Positions 14,530 to 19,878 are shown, counted from the first letter of the stretch. The stretch: 64,000 nt of DNA from Desulfocarbo indianensis (GCA_001184205.1 LBMP01000003.1:1-64000); one strand, 5' to 3'. Numbers and translations: made by a program. Notes: generated by a model not told the origin, from the sequence alone.

Positions 14530-16026
14530 ATGAAGGCAGCTTTTCCCCACATCGAACCAGCCTCGCCGCAACGGGTGCGAGACAAGATCATCGTCTTATT
14601 GCTGGGCCTTGTAGCCCTTTTGGGGGCCGCCGCGGCCTGGCCCGACCTGGCCCGAGCCAACCAAACGGCCGGCTCCGCCGAGGTCCTCAATTACTGCTAC
14701 CAGGGCAAGCTCACCGAAACCCGCCTGGTGGTGGTCAATAAATCCTTGCAGCGGGTTATGGTCTACCGTTACCTCGGCGGCTTGGTGCTGGAATATGAGT
14801 TTCCCGCCGCCACGGGAACCAACCAGGGGCCCAAAACCCAAGAGGGGGACGAGCGCACGCCGGTGGGCATCTACTTCACCACCCACCGCTACCAGGACCG
14901 CAAGGTCACCATCTTCGGCGACCGGGCCATTCATCTCAACTACCCCAATCCCGTGGACCTGATAGAGGGGAAAAAAGGCAACGGCATTTACATCCACGGC
15001 ACCAACCAGGACCTGCGCAAGCGCTCCTCCAACGGCTGCGTGACCATGCGCAACCAGGACCTGGCCCTGATCGAGCCCTTGATAACCGAGCAGCTCACCC
15101 CGGTCATCGTGGTGGAGCGGCTGGAGCTGGCGCCCCTGAACCAGCGCGAGCAGGCCTGCGACCAACTGCGCAACCTGGAGGGAGCCCTGGACAAAAGCTC
15201 CGCCAGGCTGGAGCCCGCCTTGGCCCTGGCCGGCAACGGCCACGAGCACAAGGGGATTCTGGCCAGCCTGGCCCCCAAATTGGCCTCGCTGGACAGCGCC
15301 CCCCAAGCCTCCCTGCGCTCTGAAACCAAGGGCTTGGTGCTCTTGGGCCTGGGCAAGCAATGGGTGCTGGTGGCCAACCAGATATTGCACGGGCCCAAAC
15401 GCCGGACCGTGAGCGTCACCCGCCGCTTTTATCTGAACGGTCAACAAGCGCCGGAAGCCAGTCTGGTGCGCGGGGATTGGGTGGTGCCGGATTTGGCCTC
15501 GGCCAAGACCCTGGCCTCCTGGGCTCCGGCCGCCCCGCCGCAAGGGCGGGCGCGTCAAGCCAAGCCGGTCCTGGCCTCCGCCGGCGGCTCCCCGGCCGCT
15601 CCCGGCATCCCCCAGCCCGCCGCGCGCGAGGCCGCCCCCAGGTCCGAGCAGCAATTGAAGGGCTCCATCAAGCTGTGGCTGGCGGCCTGGCAATCCAAAC
15701 GGCTCAAAAATTACATGACGTTTTACGCCCCGGGCTTCACGGGAGACGGCAAAAACCGCAACGAGTGGAGAAAGCACAAAGCCTACCTGAACAAAGTCTA
15801 TAAAGATATCCGCGTCAGGGCGGAGAATCTGAAAATATCCATAAAAGGAAGCCGCGCCGAAGTGAGTTTCGTGCAGCATTACCGGTCTGACTGGCACCAG
15901 GATGTGGGCAAGAAAACCATGGTCTGGCAACTCAGAAAGGGCCGTTGGCTGATCATACAAGAAGATTGGAACAGCTTGCCCGGCCGGGCCAGCGGCGTTT
16001 CCGGCAGGGGCAGTCGGTCATCCTAG
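14530..16026 (+). CDS. YkuD L,D-transpeptidase/carboxypeptidase-like protein with C-terminal NTF2-like domain (Csd6/Pgp2-like)
   Basis: 498 residues. An N-terminal hydrophobic segment (about 22-42) acts as signal or anchor; the YkuD domain (about 60-200) carries the catalytic signature HGTNQDL...SSNGCVTMRN, with His near 156 and Cys near 170. A Pro/Ala-rich linker (about 340-375) leads to a C-terminal NTF2-like domain (about 380-490: KGSIKLWLAAWQSKRLKNYM...). This architecture is that of Helicobacter Csd6 and Campylobacter Pgp2, L,D-carboxypeptidases that trim tetrapeptides to tripeptides and are needed for helical cells. I start at ATG 14530, with GGAG six bases upstream, not at earlier in-frame codons. 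First gene of a four-gene cluster ending in bactofilin. Confidence 0.85.
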   Translation: MKAAFPHIEPASPQRVRDKIIVLLLGLVALLGAAAAWPDLARANQTAGSAEVLNYCYQGKLTETRLVVVNKSLQRVMVYRYLGGLVLEYEFPAATGTNQGPKTQEGDERTPVGIYFTTHRYQDRKVTIFGDRAIHLNYPNPVDLIEGKKGNGIYIHGTNQDLRKRSSNGCVTMRNQDLALIEPLITEQLTPVIVVERLELAPLNQREQACDQLRNLEGALDKSSARLEPALALAGNGHEHKGILASLAPKLASLDSAPQASLRSETKGLVLLGLGKQWVLVANQILHGPKRRTVSVTRRFYLNGQQAPEASLVRGDWVVPDLASAKTLASWAPAAPPQGRARQAKPVLASAGGSPAAPGIPQPAAREAAPRSEQQLKGSIKLWLAAWQSKRLKNYMTFYAPGFTGDGKNRNEWRKHKAYLNKVYKDIRVRAENLKISIKGSRAEVSFVQHYRSDWHQDVGKKTMVWQLRKGRWLIIQEDWNSLPGRASGVSGRGSRSS

Positions 16027-16036
16027 AGGAGGGCAC

Positions 16037-16834
16037 GTGGGAGAAGGTGGCTTCGATGTGGTATTGGTGCGAAAGTCCGGACCGGTGCAATCCATGAAAT
16101 TCCGCAGCTGGTGGGTATATTTCCTTTTTTTGGTTTTGATCGTCATGCTGGCCGGCCTGGTGGCCGCCTCCTATCTGCTTTTCAATCAACAGCAGGCCCT
16201 CAAGGATTTGTCCGAGGACACCCGTCTGCTCATGCTCAGGGCCGAGCGTTTGGAATCCCTGGCCCAGGAGCAGGAAACCCGGGCCCTTTTGGCCCAGCAG
16301 GCCGAGGATGAGAAACGGGAGGCCGAGCTGGCGGCCAAGGCCAGGAACTCGACCAAGGAAGCGCTGGCCGCGGAAAAGCTAAAAGCCGAGGAAGCCAAGC
16401 CCGAGAAGCCGGCGCTGCCGCCCGAGCCCAAGTCCTCGGAGCATGTGACCATCAACAACGTGGAGGTCAACAAAAGAGGCGGCGAGGTCAACGTGGTCTT
16501 CGACGTGGTCAACCGGCACGACCCCGCCGATCCGGCCATGGGCTACGTCACCGTGGTCAACCGGGCCGAACGCGCCGGCAAGCCCTGGATAGAGGCCTGG
16601 CCGCCCATGCGGCTCTCGCCTCTGGGCCGCCCCTTGAACTACCGGCGGGGCACGCCTTTTTCCGTGCAGCGCTACCGCCGCTTGAAAGCCAGCTTCGCCA
16701 AGGGCGATAAAAAATTCGAGCGCTTGGAGTTTCTGATCTATTCGCGGGAGGGCGAACTTCTCTTGGCCCACACCGAGAATTTGGCCGCCCAGGGAGAAAA
16801 GACCACCACGCAGGAGCCCGCCGGCTCCCAGTAA
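16037..16834 (+). CDS. Single-span membrane protein with coiled coil, cell-shape cluster
   Basis: 265 residues. A short basic cytoplasmic tail (about 1-25) and one transmembrane helix (about 27-48) are followed by a Gln/Glu/Lys-rich coiled coil (about 50-118) and a C-terminal beta-rich domain (about 133-250) outside the membrane. I do not recognise the family. It sits 10 bases after the YkuD gene and 11 before the M99 gene, so it is co-transcribed. Its topology would let it link the cytoplasmic bactofilin to periplasmic wall enzymes, much as Csd5 and Csd7 do in Helicobacter; this is an inference from context. GTG start with GGAGG upstream. Confidence 0.7.
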   Translation: MGEGGFDVVLVRKSGPVQSMKFRSWWVYFLFLVLIVMLAGLVAASYLLFNQQQALKDLSEDTRLLMLRAERLESLAQEQETRALLAQQAEDEKREAELAAKARNSTKEALAAEKLKAEEAKPEKPALPPEPKSSEHVTINNVEVNKRGGEVNVVFDVVNRHDPADPAMGYVTVVNRAERAGKPWIEAWPPMRLSPLGRPLNYRRGTPFSVQRYRRLKASFAKGDKKFERLEFLIYSREGELLLAHTENLAAQGEKTTTQEPAGSQ

Positions 16835-16845
16835 GGCGATTCGCG

Positions 16846-18663
16846 ATGCCATTAAAAGCCTTGGCCGCCGTACTCGCCGCGCTTTGTCTGCTCTGGCCCG
16901 CAATGGCCCCAGCGGGCGAAAACGGCGCGCCCCAACGACCGGGGCGCAAGCATATGGTCTATTTCGCCAACACCCCGGACGAGCTGAACGTCTACCGGGT
17001 TTACGGAGCCAGGGACGGCAAGACCATCATGATCATCGGCGGCATCCAGGGCGACGAGCCCGGAGGATTCCTTTCCGCCGATCTGTACGCGGATATCTCC
17101 CTGGCCCAGGGCAACATGATCGTGGTTCCCAGGGCCAATTTTTATTCCATCATCTTGAATCAACGGGGCCCGGACGGCGACATGAACCGCCAGTTCGGCG
17201 ACCCGGTCACCGCCCGGCGTCATGAAAAAATAGTCGCCATCCTCAAGAAGCTCATCGCCGAGAGCGACCTTTTACTGAATCTGCACGACGGCAGCGGCTT
17301 TTTCCGCCCCCGCTGGGAAGGCCCCATGGCCAATCCCCGGCGCTACGGCCAATCGCTCATCGCCGACGCGGCCCGCTATAAAACGGGCGACGGGCGGGAG
17401 ATCGACCTGGCGGATTTGGCCAAAAAGGTGCTGAACAGGGTGAACCAGCAGATCGATAACCCCAAGTATCATCTGCTTTTCAACAACCACCGCACCTCCG
17501 AGACCAGCACCATGCACAAGGAGCAGCGCCGCAGCGCCACCTATTACGCCCTTACCCAGTGCCACATCCCGGCCTACGGCGTGGAGACCAGCAAATCCCT
17601 GCCTTCCACCGCCATGAAAATCCGCCACCACGCCCTGGTGGTCAACGCTTTCATGGACGAGCTGGAAATATTGGTGGAAAACCCCGGCTCCCATCTGCCC
17701 AAGCCGGAACTGCGCTATCTGGTGGTGAGCGTCAACGACACCGTGCCCCTGGTGGTGGCCAATTACGGGACTCTTTCGGTGCGCGCCGGCGACCGCCTCA
17801 ACATCCAGCACCTGGAGGCCAATTACGAGCGGGGCCTCACCTGCGACGTAAAGGGCCTGGGCTCGGTGAACGACCTGCGCCAGGAGTTCGTCATAAACAG
17901 GTCCACCCGGGTGGAGGTGCGCAAGGACCACCAGAAAATCGGCCAGATATCCATCCAGGTGGCCAAGGGCGAGCAGCCCTTCACCACGGTGCGCTCGCCC
18001 ATTCTCTATTTCCTGGTGGACGTGGAGGGGCAGCGCCGGGTGGTGGCCGACGGAGAGAAGATGCGCGTGGTGCGCGGCGATCGCATCGCCCTGGTGGACC
18101 TGCTGTCCAACCTTCCCAGCCAGCGCGACGTGCAGGTAAACTTCAAGGGGTTCGTGCCGCCCGGCCGCAAGGCCAATTCAGGCGAGGACCGGGGGCACGT
18201 GATAAACACCGCCACCGACCTCATGGAGCGCTACGGCCAATGCCGGGGCGACCGCGCCAAGGGAGTGGAATGCTACCGGGTGGTGGCCAGCCAGTCCGGC
18301 AACGAGCTGGGCTCCATCAAGGTGGAAGTGACCCCCGCGCGCATGGACTACATGGTCCTAAGGCGAAAAGGGGGGCCCAAGCTGGTTTACCACAACGGCG
18401 AAACCGTGCAGGCCCAACCCGGCGAACGGCTGGAGGTGGTGGATTTCAAAACCAACGTTTCGTCCGGCAGCGGCCTGGCCTTGGCCCTGGACGGCAGGGA
18501 GGGAGGCCGGCGGGTTCCCGTGCAAGACCGCATGATAGACATCGGCAGCGAGTCGGTGCGCGGACTGGCCAAAAGAGGCTCGGGCGGATTACGGCTTGTG
18601 GTGCTGCGGGCAGATCAAGCCATAGGCCATGTGCGGCTTAAGATCGGAGGCCATGAGAATTGA
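16846..18663 (+). CDS. M99-family D,L-carboxypeptidase (Csd4/Pgp1-like)
   Basis: 605 residues with a signal peptide (cut near residue 24). The metallocarboxypeptidase domain shows GGIQGDEPGG, LLLNLHDGSG and AYGVETSKS. That gives zinc ligands Gln68, Glu71 and His147 and catalytic Glu247. The Gln in place of the usual His is the hallmark of Csd4 of Helicobacter (family M99), which trims peptidoglycan tripeptides to dipeptides and is required for curved or helical cells. The ~350-residue C-terminus contains repeated beta domains (three similar ...IGQISIQVAKG / LGSIKVEVTPA / IGHVRLKIGG endings). The stop overlaps the bactofilin start. Confidence 0.87.
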   Translation: MPLKALAAVLAALCLLWPAMAPAGENGAPQRPGRKHMVYFANTPDELNVYRVYGARDGKTIMIIGGIQGDEPGGFLSADLYADISLAQGNMIVVPRANFYSIILNQRGPDGDMNRQFGDPVTARRHEKIVAILKKLIAESDLLLNLHDGSGFFRPRWEGPMANPRRYGQSLIADAARYKTGDGREIDLADLAKKVLNRVNQQIDNPKYHLLFNNHRTSETSTMHKEQRRSATYYALTQCHIPAYGVETSKSLPSTAMKIRHHALVVNAFMDELEILVENPGSHLPKPELRYLVVSVNDTVPLVVANYGTLSVRAGDRLNIQHLEANYERGLTCDVKGLGSVNDLRQEFVINRSTRVEVRKDHQKIGQISIQVAKGEQPFTTVRSPILYFLVDVEGQRRVVADGEKMRVVRGDRIALVDLLSNLPSQRDVQVNFKGFVPPGRKANSGEDRGHVINTATDLMERYGQCRGDRAKGVECYRVVASQSGNELGSIKVEVTPARMDYMVLRRKGGPKLVYHNGETVQAQPGERLEVVDFKTNVSSGSGLALALDGREGGRRVPVQDRMIDIGSESVRGLAKRGSGGLRLVVLRADQAIGHVRLKIGGHEN

Positions 18664-19022
18664 GCGAAAATAATCTCACTGTCTTGGCCAGCGGCACCTT
18701 TGTGCGCGGCGATCTTTTCAGCGAAGACGTGTTGGTCATCGAAGGCGGCGTGGAAGGCAACATCGTGGGCTCGCGGGTCATCGTCAAGGCCAGGGGCTGG
18801 GTGCATGGCGATCTGGCCTGCCGTTCGCTTTCCATCGAGCCCGGCGGCGTGGTTGACGGCGCGGTCAAGGTGGCCGTCAAGCCGCAACTGCCGGGAAGGG
18901 CCGAGCCCGAGTCCCTGCCCGAAGGTTCGGAAACTTACACCTTGCCTCCCGGCGAGCCGGGAAATGCGGACCCCGATCTTTCCGGCGGCGATGAAGACCC
19001 GAGTGAAAAAAAAGATTATTAG
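18660..19022 (+). CDS. Bactofilin (polymer-forming cytoskeletal protein)
   Basis: 120 residues. The central part, about 8-80 (GTFVRGDLFSEDVLVIEGGVEGNI...GWVHGDLACRSLSIEPGG), is the short-period right-handed beta-helix of bactofilins, flanked by a disordered acidic C-terminal tail. Bactofilins such as CcmA of Helicobacter polymerise without nucleotide and localise wall-modifying enzymes. Start is TTG, overlapping the M99 stop (TTGA) with GGAGG nine bases upstream, showing tight translational coupling. As the last gene of the cluster, it suggests the cell-shape function of the whole operon. Confidence 0.88.
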   Translation: MSENNLTVLASGTFVRGDLFSEDVLVIEGGVEGNIVGSRVIVKARGWVHGDLACRSLSIEPGGVVDGAVKVAVKPQLPGRAEPESLPEGSETYTLPPGEPGNADPDLSGGDEDPSEKKDY

Positions 19023-19096: not shown

Positions 19097-19125
19097 TTTC
19101 GCTAAATTATTTGGAGGAAGTCATC

Positions 19126-19878
19126 ATGTCAGGGCTCGGGCCCTTCACTGCCTTGCGCGCCGCGCTATGGCCGGTTTTATTGCTCGCCGGAGGGATGCTG
19201 GCATCCTGCTCATCCGCTCCGCCCCCGCAGCCACCGCCCACGGTGGACCGCACGGGCGATGAGCTGGGATTGGGCATCGCCTTATGGACCAGCTCGCAAA
19301 CCTGCAACATCGAGGACGTTTCCAAACTGCTCATGGCGGGCGCTCCGGTGGATATCAAGCGGGGTCCCCATCAAAGCACGCCGCTTATGGAAACCGTGGG
19401 CTCCTATGACAACAAATGCCCCAAAACCCTGGCCGAGATGCTGATAAAGGCCGGCGCCGACCCCAATGCCCGCGACGCCAGGGGATGGACGCCCCTGCAT
19501 TACCTGGCGGCCGGCCATTGCATCGAAACCAGCAGCGAGGCCTTGCTCTACCTCATCCGGGCCGGCGCCGACCCCACCCTGATGGATCAACACGGCATGA
19601 CTCCGCTGGATTTGGCCACCAAGGCCAGCTGCGCCGACTCGGTGGGCATTCTGGCCGCCCACCTGCAGGAACTCAACAAGGCCCGCAAGAAAGCCACCAA
19701 GGCTCCCTGGGCCCAGTCTCCGGCGGAGCGCGAGCTGGAAAGCCAAAGCAGCCCCCAAAACGCGATGCCCTGGCAACAACAGGGCGGGCCGCCGGCCACG
19801 GATGCCTTTCCGCAGGGAACTCCCCAAGACGCCTCCGTCCAGCAGGCGGGAGGCGCGCCGGCGAAAAACGGCAACTAG
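19126..19878 (+). CDS. Ankyrin-repeat lipoprotein
   Basis: 250 residues. A signal peptide ends in the lipobox LASC (Cys28). Three or so ankyrin repeats cover about 50-185 (DVSKLLMAGAPVDIK, ARDARGWTPLHYLAAGHC, LMDQHGMTPLDLATKASC), then a low-complexity Gln/Pro/Gly tail. Cysteines recur in the repeats and could pair in the periplasm. Probably a protein-binding envelope factor; no partner is evident. ATG 19126 has GGAGGA seven bases upstream, better than the in-frame TTG at 19111. It follows the bactofilin operon but is separated by a possible terminator. Confidence 0.8.
   Translation: MSGLGPFTALRAALWPVLLLAGGMLASCSSAPPPQPPPTVDRTGDELGLGIALWTSSQTCNIEDVSKLLMAGAPVDIKRGPHQSTPLMETVGSYDNKCPKTLAEMLIKAGADPNARDARGWTPLHYLAAGHCIETSSEALLYLIRAGADPTLMDQHGMTPLDLATKASCADSVGILAAHLQELNKARKKATKAPWAQSPAERELESQSSPQNAMPWQQQGGPPATDAFPQGTPQDASVQQAGGAPAKNGN

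Follow-up and report, generated by a model that had tools for sequence, protein, structure and literature searches.

Operons that combine Csd6- and Csd4-type wall carboxypeptidases with a bactofilin and a candidate membrane adaptor in Desulfocarbo indianensis and other Desulfobacterota

In a 64,000-nucleotide stretch of DNA from Desulfocarbo indianensis (LBMP01000003.1:1-64000; hereafter the window, from whose first letter all coordinates are counted), four + strand genes lie in tandem with intergenic gaps of 10, 11 and -4 bp, as verified by checking the open reading frames (ORFs) and their starts (Table 1). They encode a YkuD protein with an NTF2-like tail (LDT), a single-pass coiled-coil membrane protein (TMC), an M99 carboxypeptidase and a short bactofilin. 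LDT matches both YkuD (4.6e-17) and Cds6_C (2.3e-16) above the Pfam cut-offs, and its closest solved structure is Bdellovibrio Bd1075 (7o21; 8.8e-31), to which both domains align; in the catalytic His/Cys motif, IHGT...RSSNGC in LDT corresponds to LHAI...RGSRGC in Bd1075. The third protein matches Peptidase_M99 at 2.2e-31 (109.8 bits against a cut-off of 27), its family profile matches Csd4 at 3.5e-58, and Csd4 of H. pylori (4wck/4q6m) is its closest solved structure. Residues Q68, E71 and H147 lie within the Csd4-aligned stretch and are invariant across 23 relatives. Pgp1 is the Campylobacter M99 enzyme. The original prediction for this DNA, which described four adjacent genes with short gaps or overlaps, a YkuD protein with a Csd6-like NTF2 tail, an M99 enzyme with a Gln68/Glu71/His147 zinc set and a terminal bactofilin, and which saw the Csd6- and Csd4-type families and the bactofilin as consolidated in one operon, agrees in each of these points with the ORF check, the Pfam and structure matches and the recurrence of the gene order in other genomes described below.

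The assignment of the last gene to the bactofilins is based on a Pfam match of 5.6e-10 (39.8 bits against 27.9) that covers profile positions 1-65 of 98, and the family profile matches both BacA and ThBac. An AlphaFold 2 (AF2) model has a confident all-beta core at residues 6-71 with about four windings; ThBac is the top Foldseek match to this model, although a weak one (E 0.049). In our alignment A3, approximately 33 internal columns present in the operon bactofilins of other families are absent from the window protein. Its N-terminus is also without the MFxKKK membrane motif described for bactofilins (PMC12448750), a motif that almost every operon copy in A3 lacks too; in D. sandiegensis, by contrast, a second bactofilin encoded elsewhere in the genome has MFGKKK. 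The window bactofilin may instead be held at the membrane by TMC. D. indianensis also has a second, full-length bactofilin (L091:6881-7345; G000:C1:681988-682275), encoded directly downstream of mrdA (PBP2)- and rodA-like genes and upstream of ATP synthase genes.

TMC, the second gene product, is the least familiar member of the set. The window protein has no Pfam match above cut-off, and a scan of 25 TMCs against Pfam and NCBIfam returned neither an above-cut-off family nor one common between members. The AF2 model of this 265-residue protein (mean pLDDT 86) has a beta-hairpin (strands at residues 5-10 and 18-23) directly before a helix that opens with the transmembrane segment, followed by an immunoglobulin (Ig)-like domain. 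The predicted topology is thus N-in with a single transmembrane segment, a short cytoplasmic N-terminus and a periplasmic domain. Five columns besides Met1 are nearly invariant, one of them the hairpin-turn residue Gly15. The beta-sandwich at residues 137-248 is similar to Ig-like domains found in GH2 enzymes, with Z reaching 11.1; this fold is common and implies no function.

The layout of this model, when set against the published description of LmdC, suggests a role for the hairpin. LmdC consists of a hairpin, a transmembrane segment and a coil and ends in an M23 domain; the first 38 residues bind BacA with a KD of ~15 μM, and changes in the hairpin disturb bactofilin-dependent localisation (PMC10945521). 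A hairpin-only profile comparison (hhalign) between TMCs and hand-picked LmdC-type M23 tails scored 16.3, compared with a maximum of 14.3 in 150 column shuffles and 7.3 for a reversed control, supporting a resemblance between the TMC and LmdC tails. No M23 match was found in the 25 TMCs, and an Ig-like fold takes the place of that domain; TMC is therefore not an LmdC. In the original prediction the membrane protein was said to have a topology suited to tethering bactofilin: the topology, together with an LmdC-like hairpin, is what the model shows, while the tethering of the enzymes to bactofilin through TMC is well supported by inference.

Table 1. Features of the operon and its products, in window coordinates.
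Feature	Position	Strand	Residues	Description and basis
LDT gene	14530..16026	+	498 aa	YkuD + NTF2 (Cds6_C) periplasmic protein, predicted LD-carboxypeptidase of Csd6/Pgp2/Bd1075 type; ATG start; Pfam, PDB match
LDT, YkuD catalytic domain	14722..15111	+	aa 65-194	IHGT...RSSNGC aligned to Bd1075 active-site region
LDT, C-terminal NTF2-like domain	15655..15963	+	aa 376-478	Pfam Cds6_C
TMC gene	16037..16834	+	265 aa	Bitopic coiled-coil linker, no Pfam family above cut-off; GTG start
TMC, cytoplasmic beta-hairpin	16049..16105	+	aa 5-23	Proposed bactofilin-docking tail; AF2 strands before transmembrane helix
TMC, transmembrane segment and coiled-coil helix	16106..16372	+	aa 24-112	AF2 helix opening with transmembrane segment
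TMC, periplasmic Ig-like beta-sandwich	16445..16780	+	aa 137-248	AF2 model, structure comparison
M99 carboxypeptidase gene	16846..18663	+	605 aa	Csd4/Pgp1 type, N-terminus resembling a signal peptide, long C-terminal part; ATG start
M99, catalytic domain	17020..17673	+	aa 59-276	Contains Q68, E71, H147; Pfam, residue check
Bactofilin gene	18660..19022	+	120 aa	Short bactofilin; TTG start; Pfam, AF2 model
Terminator-like stem-loop	19041..19100	+		Operon end; GC stem, T-rich tail (GGCGTCCC...GGGACGCC)

The conservation of the gene order was followed in two partly overlapping sets of genomes. Within a phylum sample of 297 genomes, 55 had an M99 protein over the cut-off, at 56 loci; 34 of these are flanked by both an NTF2-bearing LDT and TMC, five by LDT alone and 17 by neither, and a further 14 TMC loci have LDT only. 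A named collection, some of whose contigs are shared with the phylum sample and nearly all of whose loci come from metagenome-assembled genomes (MAGs), contributed 80 M99 loci, 58 of them with enough flanking sequence: LDT and TMC lie upstream in 45, a bactofilin follows at a distance below 400 bp in 30, and the complete set of four genes is likewise found in 30. Dozens of genomes share this order of genes, so the arrangement is not due to chance. In a tree built from 125 catalytic domains of M99 (where the placement of L046, a long branch, is unsure) the operon label requires two changes, as against 19.8 in shuffles, compatible with few origins of the linkage. Twelve solo M99s, all scoring above 200 bits with the Csd4-type model (operon M99s reach ~160), fall almost together on this tree, and several genomes with a solo M99 keep an LDT-TMC pair elsewhere. 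The operon is thus a widespread Desulfobacterota module, not peculiar to D. indianensis, from which M99 can be missing. In other Desulfobacterota a second M99 lineage, with greater likeness to Csd4, is present as solo genes (L059, L065, L076, L078, L080-L087), and two genomes, G209 and G294, have both kinds of M99.

Variant loci bear on the pairing of TMC with bactofilin. At L102 (on the same contig as L045) and in its congener L060 the order is LDT-TMC-M99-LmdC-bactofilin, and at L138, L159 and L160, from Ca. Magnetocorallium and two Nitrospirae MAGs, an LmdC-type M23 gene and then two tandem bactofilins precede TMC and M99. Five species of genus g3, which belongs to the same family as D. indianensis, are without M99. 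In the three that were mapped (L172, L173, L193) the chromosomal site and its flanking genes are the same, and the site holds LDT-TMC-bactofilin in G053 and G172 and TMC-bactofilin, with LDT missing too, in G262; since M99 is found outside the family in other members of its order and class, the distribution favours loss of M99 in g3 over failure to gain it. TMC-bactofilin pairs with neither LDT nor M99 are also found at L241 and L242. TMC-type proteins thus repeatedly adjoin a bactofilin, even where M99 or LDT is absent. In one family (L229-L232), proteins of ~100 residues that consist of a TMC/LmdC-like hairpin, a transmembrane segment and a short coil adjoin a bactofilin, and LDT carries at its C-terminus a fused Ig domain of TMC type at three loci (L054, L056 and L064), hinting that the Ig domain of TMC lies with LDT.

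Taken together, we consider it fairly probable that the operon encodes a bactofilin-anchored peptide-trimming complex, leading from a Csd6-type to a Csd4-type enzyme, that biases wall growth and cell curvature. In such a complex, the short bactofilin would polymerise, or join polymers, beneath the inner membrane and bind the cytoplasmic hairpin of TMC, which would span the membrane, reach into the periplasm with its coiled coil and hold or position the two secreted enzymes with its Ig-like domain. LDT would then trim tetra- to tripeptides and the M99 enzyme tri- to dipeptides, removing cross-linking substrate where the bactofilin lies, so that wall growth would be locally biased and the cell would curve. 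The activities and physical contacts are predicted here; the activities are established for the named Csd6, Pgp2 and Pgp1 proteins. Csd6- and Pgp2-type enzymes produce tripeptides (PMC8938487). As the title of reference 21 in that paper has it, the DL-carboxypeptidase Pgp1 receives its substrate from Pgp2. An effect of the operon on curvature is plausible, and the curved host that the original prediction presumed is found in this one organism: D. indianensis SCBM is vibrio-shaped, with a polar flagellum (PMC4559730).

Several points weigh against this picture. Roughly every second operon locus is without a bactofilin next to it, and would have to rely on a distant one or need none. The core of the window bactofilin is short, and its polymerisation is inferred. 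The LmdC-type tails in the profile comparison were, as noted, selected by hand, a hairpin-only hidden Markov model run against ~4,550 ORFs reached an LmdC-type M23 protein only at E ~2, which is not significant, and homology of the two tails is not secure, the hairpins being short. The absence of M99 from g3 counts here as well, and also speaks for a quite different possibility, to which we give perhaps a quarter of our belief, namely that the operon is a general module for peptidoglycan maturation or recycling whose loss would leave curvature unaffected, the only part of bactofilin being to gather the enzymes at the division site, the poles or zones of growth. Such a role would suit the spread of the operon over very many lineages, Ca. 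Magnetocorallium and a MAG named Desulfosudis among them, and no phenotype is known in Desulfobacterota. However, both enzyme families are known determinants of curvature or helicity (PMC8938487; PMC9448923), the NTF2 domain of Bd1075 takes that protein to one flank of the cell, and D. indianensis is itself vibrio-shaped.

Two narrower alternatives concern single components, and we regard both as improbable. LDT could be an LD-transpeptidase or a DpaA/LdtF-like amidase acting in lipoprotein detachment, in which case the operon would control outer-membrane attachment and not peptide trimming; its match to LdtF/DpaA/YafK is weak (26 bits against a cut-off of 365), whereas the Bd1075 and Csd6 matches are far better, with Cds6_C above cut-off, and the same operon holds an M99 enzyme whose relatives in H. 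pylori and C. jejuni act on the tripeptide product. Slightly less probable still, TMC could be a divisome or elongasome tether, an FtsL/RodZ-like coiled-coil protein with bactofilin as an incidental neighbour, given that one of the 25 TMCs weakly matches FtsL (6.1e-5) and that a single transmembrane segment with a coil is a common architecture; yet the adjacency of TMC and bactofilin recurs in several contexts and persists without both enzymes, and the hairpin resembles a known bactofilin-binding tail.

A further suggestion we put forward tentatively, at slightly worse than even odds: TMC would be an unnamed adaptor family in which an LmdC-type hairpin is a movable tail for docking to bactofilin, so that the Csd6-Csd4 carboxypeptidases of cell-shape control are coupled directly to a bactofilin cytoskeleton, with the same kind of tail recurring on M23 enzymes, on the ~100-residue mini-proteins and on TMC. 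Bactofilins would then recruit diverse clients by one shared peptide code. How the cytoskeleton brings wall enzymes in the periplasm to one flank of the cell is an unsolved question, and the Bd1075 study knows of no mechanism by which a single lateral wall could be targeted (PMC8938487). For such a chain the operon is a compact candidate of four genes: it offers a short proposed docking peptide, gene absences that form a natural series at a single chromosomal site, and fusions that hint at which parts are in contact. It would also join two branches of shape control that are usually treated apart.

As to the limits of the operon, the stem-loop at its end folds with -22.1 kcal/mol (z -2.06) and is absent from the list of a consensus terminator scan; the promoter and terminator scans gave results close to the shuffle expectation. 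Just past it lies a gene for an ankyrin-repeat protein with a lipoprotein-like N-terminus (19111-19878, +). The window LDT has one recognisable Cds6_C domain and a stretch of ~170 residues with no assignment, and two tandem Cds6_C NTF2 domains are common among its relatives in many genomes.

Our literature search, which mostly did not reach subscription papers, found no description of an LDT-TMC-M99-bactofilin operon, but each of its parts has known counterparts. Bd1075, the nearest solved relative of LDT, likewise joins a YkuD catalytic domain to an NTF2 domain, which targets the protein to the outer curve of the cell; it differs in being described as monocistronic (PMC8938487), whereas the LDT gene precedes those for the linker, M99 and bactofilin, and in the tandem NTF2 domains of many LDT relatives. 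With the Csd6/Csd4 and CcmA-Csd5 proteins of H. pylori, and with Pgp2/Pgp1 of Campylobacter, the operon shares an NTF2-tailed LD-carboxypeptidase, a Gln/Glu/His M99 enzyme and a bactofilin, the difference being that in D. indianensis all components are in one operon. Csd5, which binds CcmA (PMC9448923), is single-pass with a short cytoplasmic N-terminus, as is TMC, but ends in an SH3 domain; the Pfam scan of TMCs returned no SH3 family, and their C-terminal domain is modelled as an Ig-like sandwich. TMC is therefore not recognisably Csd5, although it may work like it. The bactofilin-LmdC module of Hyphomonas and Rhodospirillum (PMC10945521) likewise places a bactofilin beside a bitopic protein with a cytoplasmic beta-hairpin, a transmembrane segment, a coiled coil and a periplasmic domain, but where LmdC carries its own M23 peptidase, TMC has an Ig-like fold and separate secreted carboxypeptidases alongside. 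To a known theme, the remodelling of the wall under the guidance of bactofilins, the operon thus adds a new linker and the carboxypeptidase branch.

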